Of a stretch of 64,000 bases of DNA, positions 4,320 to 21,911 are shown in pieces. A program made the translations under genes and the position numbers. Below the pieces are notes generated by a model. The model saw nothing but the letters and a program-made list of their open reading frames with translations, ran no database searches and had not been told where the DNA came from. The first letter of the stretch is position 1, and each line of letters opens with the position of its first letter. Source of the stretch: Pseudomonadota bacterium (lineage in GTDB: Bacteria; Pseudomonadota; Gammaproteobacteria; Xanthomonadales; Rhodanobacteraceae); contig JAFEFS010000100.1 in the NCBI GenBank assembly GCA_018240465.1, forward strand, positions 62,001 through 126,000. The letters are read 5' to 3'.

Positions 4320-4347
4320 ATTGTATTTTCAGTTATAAAAAAACAAT
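4320..4347. promoter_or_regulatory. Operator-like inverted repeat, site A of the regulon
   Basis: ATTGTATTT, 10 bases, AAAAACAAT. It sits between the divergent TonB receptor and C45 hydrolase genes, 109 bases before the latter's ATG. It matches the arms and spacing of four other copies (12615, 13860, 20683, 21885). The right arm is the weakest of the five. Its role as an operator for the GntR-type protein encoded at 20833 is inference. Confidence 0.6.
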
Positions 4348-12614: not shown

Positions 12615-12642
12615 ATTGTATTATTGCGATTATTAATGCAAT
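12615..12642. promoter_or_regulatory. Operator-like inverted repeat, site B of the regulon
   Basis: ATTGTATTA, 10 bases, TAATGCAAT. Both 9-base arms and the 10-base spacing are identical to site D at 20683, although the spacer differs completely. It lies between divergent amidohydrolase and aminotransferase genes. Confidence 0.75.
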
Positions 12643-13859: not shown

Positions 13860-13887
13860 ATTGCGTTTAGTGGCCATAAAGTGCAAT
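13860..13887. promoter_or_regulatory. Operator-like inverted repeat, site C of the regulon
   Basis: ATTGCGTTT, 10 bases, AAGTGCAAT, preceded by an extra half-site ATTGCATTA at 13841-13849 that equals the reverse complement of the right arm of sites B and D. It lies between the aminotransferase stop and the alpha/beta hydrolase start. It overlaps an upstream GTG at 13881, which argues against that codon being the start. Confidence 0.6.
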
Positions 13888-20682: not shown

Positions 20683-20710
20683 ATTGTATTAATTAAGAGG
20701 ATAATGCAAT
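20683..20710. promoter_or_regulatory. Operator-like inverted repeat, site D of the regulon
   Basis: ATTGTATTA, 10 bases, TAATGCAAT, arms identical to site B. It lies between the divergent binding-protein operon and the GntR-type regulator, as expected for autoregulation. It is nested in a wider inverted repeat (ATCGTATT at 20656-20663 and AATACGAT at 20708-20715), which may give a second binding register. Confidence 0.75.
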
Positions 20711-20832: not shown

Positions 20833-21765
20833 ATGCGGAACGAGCAAGCGCCTCAACCCAGTTCGCTGCAAATCGAGATCGCCAATCAGATCATGGACAT
20901 GATCCGCGGTGGCGGCGTCGGACCCGGCGAGCATCTGACCGAGGCGGTCCTCGCCAAACGTTACGGCGTGTCGCGCTCGCCGGTGCGCGCGGCATTGAAG
21001 ATGTTGCAGGATCGCGGCTACCTCGAGGCCCGGGCCAATGCCGGCGTGTTCGTGTCCAAGCGCGTGCCGCGCATGCGTTTGGATGCGCTCGAGAATCCGA
21101 ATCCGACCGCCGACGATCTATATCATTCGATCATCACCGATCGCGCCGGCGGCAAGCTGCAGAAAGCGCTGTCCGAAACCGAATTGATGGCACGCTACGG
21201 GGCACCGAAAAGCGTTCTGATGCATGCGCTGTTGCGGCTCACGCGCGAGGGCTTGATCCGGCGTCGACGTGGGCATGGCTGGCAGTTTCTGCCTGCACTC
21301 GATTCGGAAGAGGCGCTGTACGAGGCCTATCGCTTTCGCATGGTCATCGAATGCGCCGCATTGCGGGAGCCGACATTCAAGATCGTGCCCGAGGAGCTTG
21401 CTTCGGCACGGCGTCGCTACGAGGACTTTCTCGCGCGCAGCCCGCGCGCGCAGACGTCCTCGGCGTTTTTCGAAATGAATTCGGCATTTCACGAAATGCT
21501 GATGCGCTTCTCCGGCAACCGCTTCATCGTCCAGGCGATGCAGCAGCAGAATCAACTGCGCCGCTTCGAGGAATTTTCGAGCTATTCCGGTCCGAACCGT
21601 AACGTGATCGAGTCGTGCAAGCGATTGCTGCAGATCATCGCCGCGATCGAGGCGGGCGACAACGTCTTCGCCGAAGCGTTGATGCTGCGTCATCTCAAGA
21701 TCGCCTGCGCACTGTCGATCGGGCGCCGCCAGGCGCCATCGGCTGTTGCACGCGACGCCGGGTAG
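20833..21765 (+). CDS. GntR/FadR-type regulator with two winged-helix domains
   Basis: 310 residues, probable regulator of the whole 4.2-23.3 kb cluster. The N-terminal GntR winged helix (residues 10-75: IANQIMDMIRGGGVGPGEHLTEAVLAKR..., VSRSPVRAALKMLQDRGYL) is followed by a second winged helix at about 95-158 (LSETELMARYGAPKSVLMHALLRLTREGLIRRRRGHGW). An FCD-like helical ligand domain ends the chain (AYRFRMVIECAALREP, FHEMLMRFSGNRF, EAGDNVFAEALMLRHLKIA). Typical FadR-type proteins have only one DNA-binding domain and 220-250 residues. The duplication fits the long two-part operator. Regulon assignment is inference from position and site distribution. Confidence 0.85.
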   Translation: MRNEQAPQPSSLQIEIANQIMDMIRGGGVGPGEHLTEAVLAKRYGVSRSPVRAALKMLQDRGYLEARANAGVFVSKRVPRMRLDALENPNPTADDLYHSIITDRAGGKLQKALSETELMARYGAPKSVLMHALLRLTREGLIRRRRGHGWQFLPALDSEEALYEAYRFRMVIECAALREPTFKIVPEELASARRRYEDFLARSPRAQTSSAFFEMNSAFHEMLMRFSGNRFIVQAMQQQNQLRRFEEFSSYSGPNRNVIESCKRLLQIIAAIEAGDNVFAEALMLRHLKIACALSIGRRQAPSAVARDAG

Positions 21766-21884: not shown

Positions 21885-21911
21885 ATTGTATTTTCTGCAA
21901 AAAAATGCAAT
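21885..21911. promoter_or_regulatory. Operator-like inverted repeat, site E of the regulon
   Basis: ATTGTATTT, 9 bases, AAATGCAAT. One base shorter in the spacer than the other four sites. It ends 40 bases before the ATG of the beta-alanine-type aminotransferase and overlaps the extended reading frame upstream of that ATG, supporting the later start. Confidence 0.65.

Follow-up and report, generated by a model that had tools for sequence, protein, structure and literature searches.

A tandem winged-helix variant of the FCD regulators and its predicted wide operators in Rudaea

The open reading frame examined here, from a genome of the genus Rudaea, encodes a GntR-type regulator with two winged helices in tandem ahead of an FCD domain. 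This tandem FCD regulator is a real, conserved variant, and its added domain is linked to the spacing of its operators in a way that can be tested. The operator arms lie ~15 bases further apart than in ordinary relatives, which suggests that the extra domain is a spacer or an extra grip. GntR ranks among the large regulator families of bacteria, and GT/AC spacing rules serve regulon prediction. Under the usual GntR operator rules, a tandem branch with its own spacing would go unnoticed or be misinterpreted. Coordinates refer to the window, which is the whole 64,000-nucleotide stretch of DNA that was analysed.

Table 1. Coordinates of the regulator, its domains and the predicted operators in the window.
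Feature	Position	Strand	Basis or location
Tandem winged-helix FCD regulator, 310 aa	20833..21765	+	ORF with ATG start; Pfam GntR twice plus FCD; AlphaFold2
wHTH1, residues 11-75, canonical GntR DNA-binding domain	20863..21057	+	Pfam GntR 15-74; AlphaFold2; conserved S47 and R48
wHTH2, residues 93-152, second GntR-type winged helix	21109..21288	+	Pfam; AlphaFold2; PDB matches; conserved R/K126, G147 and W150
FCD ligand and dimer domain, residues 159-296, six helices	21307..21720	+	Pfam FCD, 64.5 bits; AlphaFold2; PDB matches
Operator, 28 bp	20683..20710	.	Between regulator gene and divergent substrate-binding protein gene; kept in L009 and L010
Operator, 27 bp	21885..21911	.	Before AptA-type aminotransferase gene
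Operator, 28 bp	12615..12642	.	Between amidohydrolase gene and class I aminotransferase gene
Operator, 28 bp, 2 mismatches to ATTGYATT/AATRCAAT	13860..13887	.	Before 580-aa ORF
Operator, 28 bp, 1 mismatch	4320..4347	.	Between TonB receptor gene and C45 hydrolase / Opp transporter / aldehyde dehydrogenase genes

Domain architecture and subfamily

The nearest relatives of the regulator are from Rudaea cellulosilytica (93%) and Rudaea sp. 3F27F6 (88%). The Pfam GntR profile matched wHTH1 with 86 bits and, separately, residues ~112-150. On a sequence lacking the N-terminus the second match scored 31.6 bits, and the genome search gave it 33.9 bits; it exceeds the curated Pfam cut-off of 27 bits alone. 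The FCD profile matched residues 164-288. In the AlphaFold2 model wHTH1 comprises helices at 11-25, 37-44 and 48-60 and strands at 34-36, 64-66 and 72-75. The elements of wHTH2 follow in the identical order, with helix 93-105, a two-residue strand, helices 115-122 and 126-138, and strands 142-145 and 149-152. The full-length model, built from four orthologues, had a pLDDT of 72.5 and a pTM of 0.49, and its relative domain placement is unreliable. Folded alone, residues 87-158 gave a winged helix with a pLDDT of 90 and a pTM of 0.78. The best Foldseek matches of this isolated model in the PDB were nearly all GntR-family DNA-binding domains, with modest E-values of 1e-3 to 1e-2, as expected for 72 residues. 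The initial annotation had described a normal GntR domain at residues 10-75, a second winged helix at 95-158 and an FCD-type ligand domain behind it. Structure prediction and domain search bear out all three with adjusted boundaries, and the second segment is a GntR-type winged helix outside the ligand domain.

The full model was compared with the PDB. Residues 88-303 superposed continuously on the single-domain FCD regulator 3sxy (Z 16.4, rmsd 5.6 Å, 197 residues) and on Atu1419 (Z ~13, rmsd ~4 Å over ~210 residues), and residues 7-89 matched GntR DNA-binding domains separately. Because residues 88-303 correspond to a whole single-domain FCD regulator, wHTH2 occupies the normal position of the DNA-binding domain. 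Judged from the model, wHTH2 and the FCD domain together match an entire FCD regulator of the ordinary kind, with wHTH1 apparently the addition. Although wHTH1 looks added, its sequence is better preserved than that of wHTH2.

Residue conservation was examined in 34 homologues. The wHTH1 recognition residues S47 and R48 occur in 34/34 and R52 in 28/34. Position 126, the wHTH2 counterpart of R48, is Arg or Lys in 33/34 (Lys in Rudaea), and the equivalent of R52 is mostly lost from wHTH2. E115 and the G147-W150 wing of wHTH2 are strongly kept, with G147 and W150 in 34/34. In Atu1419 the first arginine reads an essential guanine and the second contacts phosphate (PMC7797058).

The N-terminal GntR winged helix with its SRxPxR-type recognition helix places the protein in the GntR superfamily, and the C-terminal FCD domain, matched by Pfam in 17/17 tandem-family members, places it in the FCD (FadR/VanR) subfamily. 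The model has six FCD helices between residues 159 and 296, as in the VanR group, rather than the seven of the FadR group (PMC7797058). The subfamily has one DNA-binding domain per monomer and a compact operator, with GT and AC normally separated by 2-3 nt (PMC4494728), while this regulator has its second winged helix at 93-152 and 18 nt between GT and AC in the predicted operator. It is filed as a variant of the FCD subfamily, not an ordinary member, because of the second winged helix.

N216, H220 and H287 fit, as candidate ligands, the metal-binding set of Asn/Asp plus three His. Residue 265 (window 21625-21627) is His, in the context EHL, in most family members and Leu in all three Rudaea proteins. 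The family His at 265 is probably a metal ligand. With Leu at this position the metal site of the Rudaea proteins may therefore be incomplete, or the ligand may differ.

Operators and the catabolic gene cluster

The window contains five sites that match ATTGYATT-N12-AATRCAAT or a close variant. An operator of two 9-base arms spread over 28 bases had been proposed; four sites have this length, and the fifth (21885-21911) is one base shorter. Using ATTGTATT-N12-AATGCAAT with up to three mismatches, four window sites were found vs 0.02 expected. The exact pattern has only three sites in the whole genome, all inside the gene cluster of the regulator. Of 20 related genomes, it was confined to the three from Rudaea that carry the regulator (3, 3 and 4 sites); there were none in the 17 related genomes without it (0/17) and none in a backward-read control on the 20 genomes.

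A two-mismatch site on another contig (C93, L163 1501-1528) was left out of the regulon count. It is near genes for a YafY-like (HTH plus WYL) regulator and an outer-membrane-protein-like product. Similar two-mismatch sites are present in G007 and G014, and the C93 site may be the operator of the YafY-like regulator itself.

Window positions 4320-24400 hold a catabolic cluster of C45 hydrolase, Opp transporter, aldehyde dehydrogenase, amidohydrolase, hydrolase and several aminotransferase genes with five shared operators. The genes flanking the sites encode a C45 autoproteolytic hydrolase, together with an Opp-type transporter and a semialdehyde-type dehydrogenase. They further encode an amidohydrolase, a TonB receptor, a substrate-binding protein and aminotransferases, one being of AptA type. 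The 580-aa ORF resembles an alpha/beta hydrolase and has no Pfam match, and a 4-aminobutyrate aminotransferase gene is also found inside the cluster. In several relatives the regulator adjoins C45 hydrolase, amidase, aminotransferase or Opp-type transporter genes, and in others an amino-acid ABC transporter and an M20 peptidase. Judging from gene content, uptake and breakdown of an omega-amino-acid amide is a plausible role for the cluster.

The tandem family and its operator width

A profile of 17 members found the tandem regulator in 24/397 sampled Pseudomonadota genomes (~6%), and many of the carriers are plant-associated. Using tblastn, matches were found in 189 plasmid records, 146 of which cover at least 80% of the protein, with hosts that include rhizobia, Pantoea and Burkholderiales. 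Among the plasmid matches listed, identity was 26-44% and annotation, where present, was only GntR family or FCD. A full-length match was found in only 3 of the 16 Rudaea genomes searched and was absent from the other sampled genomes of the same taxonomic family, a distribution that suggests horizontal acquisition. One Bradyrhizobium candidate (L012, 53% over 36 residues) was excluded, being another GntR protein that lacks the tandem layout. A literature search with partial coverage of open-licence papers retrieved no report of a second winged helix in a GntR regulator. The tandem group is apparently an undescribed, widespread branch of FCD regulators, and the pattern reported here offers a first operator pattern for it.

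The pattern derived from the window was applied to 30 non-Rudaea tandem homologues (pairwise identity ≤65%) and 53 single-domain FCD controls. A wide site was defined by 13/16 arm bases and a spacing of 11-13 in the upstream region. Wide sites were present in 12/30 tandem homologues vs 2/53 controls (Fisher p 5e-5), in agreement with the claim that the two-domain architecture accompanies a wide operator. Base-order shuffles of the 30 gave a mean of 0.65 and a maximum of 4 in 300. The remaining 18/30 had no clear wide site under the same pattern. Examples of wide sites are ATTGCATTTTATGAGCACAACAATACAAT in Agrobacterium fabrum C58 and ATTGCATTTCACACAATTAAAATGCAAT in Pantoea agglomerans. The spacing of the wide sites is constant within about one base. 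Other spacings in the tandem set were also somewhat above the shuffles, probably owing to A/T-rich upstream regions, and the peak was at 12. A scan that sorted palindromes by spacing and used no preset pattern lacked power and was dropped. In the 53 single-domain regulators it was the short ATTGTATACAAT-type arrangement that was enriched (6 vs ~0.7 expected). One of these controls, L112, which has no second winged helix, carries the wide-spaced ATTGTATTGGATACATATAAAATACAAA near its start (strand not oriented); this match is possibly chance or two overlapping sites.

Operator reading and comparison with known systems

For the five operators, sites of three Rudaea species were compared; except for the regulator and AptA genes, the trios (three of the five) were assembled from likeness and order and not from a full gene-order check. 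The outer 9-bp arms were 94% identical and the centre 46%, a contrast somewhat favoured by the search pattern, which itself partly fixes arm conservation. The flanks were 44% identical, and the lack of any advantage of the centre over the flanks is independent of the search pattern. Since the centre is no better conserved than the flanks, it appears not to be read base by base, and the inner heads, wHTH2, probably do not read central bases. The wHTH2 pair may grip or space instead of reading. The initial annotation had envisaged a dimer with four DNA-reading heads; four heads are plausible for grip on the DNA, and base reading at the centre is unsupported. In the symmetrised family motif, built from sites selected with the same search pattern, positions 1-4 and 7-9 stand out and the signal is weak at position 11 and further in. 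Nearly two helical turns, 19-20 bp, separate the centres of the arms, so that both arms lie on the same side of the DNA.

We consider the following the best explanation and a fairly likely one. An FCD-type GntR repressor would carry one extra N-terminal winged helix, wHTH1, ahead of an ordinary wHTH plus FCD unit. The dimer held by the FCD domains would place both wHTH2 copies over the operator centre, mainly through backbone or shape contacts, and carry both wHTH1 copies outwards to read the two ATTGTATT arms on one DNA face. The wHTH2 pair would fix the two-turn spacing as a grip or ruler. Ligand binding to the FCD domain would release the DNA and switch on Opp-type uptake, the C45 hydrolase, the omega-aminotransferases and the aldehyde dehydrogenase. 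Repression is suggested by three points: a weak promoter-like match overlaps the operator at 20683-20710, the site at 12615-12642 stops 1 bp ahead of an in-frame ATG of the aminotransferase gene, and repression is the usual behaviour of FCD regulators. The 18/30 homologues with no clear wide site and the unreliable domain placement in the model count against this explanation, and so does retention of R/K126 in wHTH2, which is odd if no bases are read. The ~9-bp arm also exceeds the usual GntR half-site, which would allow wHTH2 to read the TTT on the inner side of each arm instead.

A further proposal, to which we give slightly less than an even chance, is that the second winged helix serves as a molecular ruler. 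It would take the central DNA position of an ordinary FCD dimer and move the reading heads out by ~15 bp, so that a 10-12 bp operator becomes one of 28 bp. If so, operator spacing was changed via domain addition and not via the dimer interface, and the tandem regulator is a natural case of domain addition altering DNA-site spacing.

The retained Arg/Lys also belongs to the case for four true reading heads, in which each monomer would read one 9-10 bp arm wHTH1 recognising ATTGT and wHTH2 the inner ATTT. In the family motif the information content of positions 7-9 (TTT) comes close to that of ATTG and drops at positions 5-6 in between, and single-domain relatives have shorter half-sites. We nevertheless regard this arrangement as unlikely, since 9-10 bp is tight for two winged helices, the extra TTT may be read by the wHTH1 wing or reflect A/T shape, and the second arginine is lost from wHTH2 in most members. 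That loss, together with the unconserved operator centre, would also suit a wHTH2 that is off the DNA as a degenerate linker, dimer interface or relay of the ligand signal, with wHTH1 on a longer tether setting the spacing. This is more doubtful still, as R/K126, E115 and the G147-W150 wing are strongly kept and a spacing that varies by no more than about one base is more easily explained by a rigid arrangement than by a loose tether. Finally, the palindrome could be the site of another regulator, or half-sites of two separate dimers, with its place beside the regulator gene incidental; wide-spaced matches do occur in the 2/53 controls, but exact sites only in genomes with the regulator and adjacency in 12/30 distant homologues make this most improbable.

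The best explanation, with wHTH1 on the arms and wHTH2 over the centre, can be set against three known systems. Atu1419 of Agrobacterium fabrum, a VanR group FCD/GntR regulator and a tetramer (PMC7797058), likewise has a wHTH followed by a six-helix FCD domain and begins its recognition helix with the same base-reading Arg, and its half-site ATGTA resembles the ATTGTA arm. It differs in having one wHTH per monomer where the Rudaea regulator has two, and its operator is a 10-bp palindrome, ATGTATACAT (PMC7797058), whereas the arms here span 28 bp. E. coli FadR and other FadR-group FCD regulators share the GntR wHTH, the alpha-helical FCD domain and palindromic operators, but have one wHTH, seven FCD helices as opposed to six, and GT and AC 2-3 nt apart (PMC4494728). 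That ordinary FadR-type operators are shorter, as had been stated, is supported by both comparisons. The YtrA subfamily of GntR (PMC4494728) also has operators that exceed those of the remaining GntR groups in length, their GT and AC lying well away from the centre; unlike the Rudaea regulator, its members have a short C-terminal domain, one wHTH and no FCD domain.
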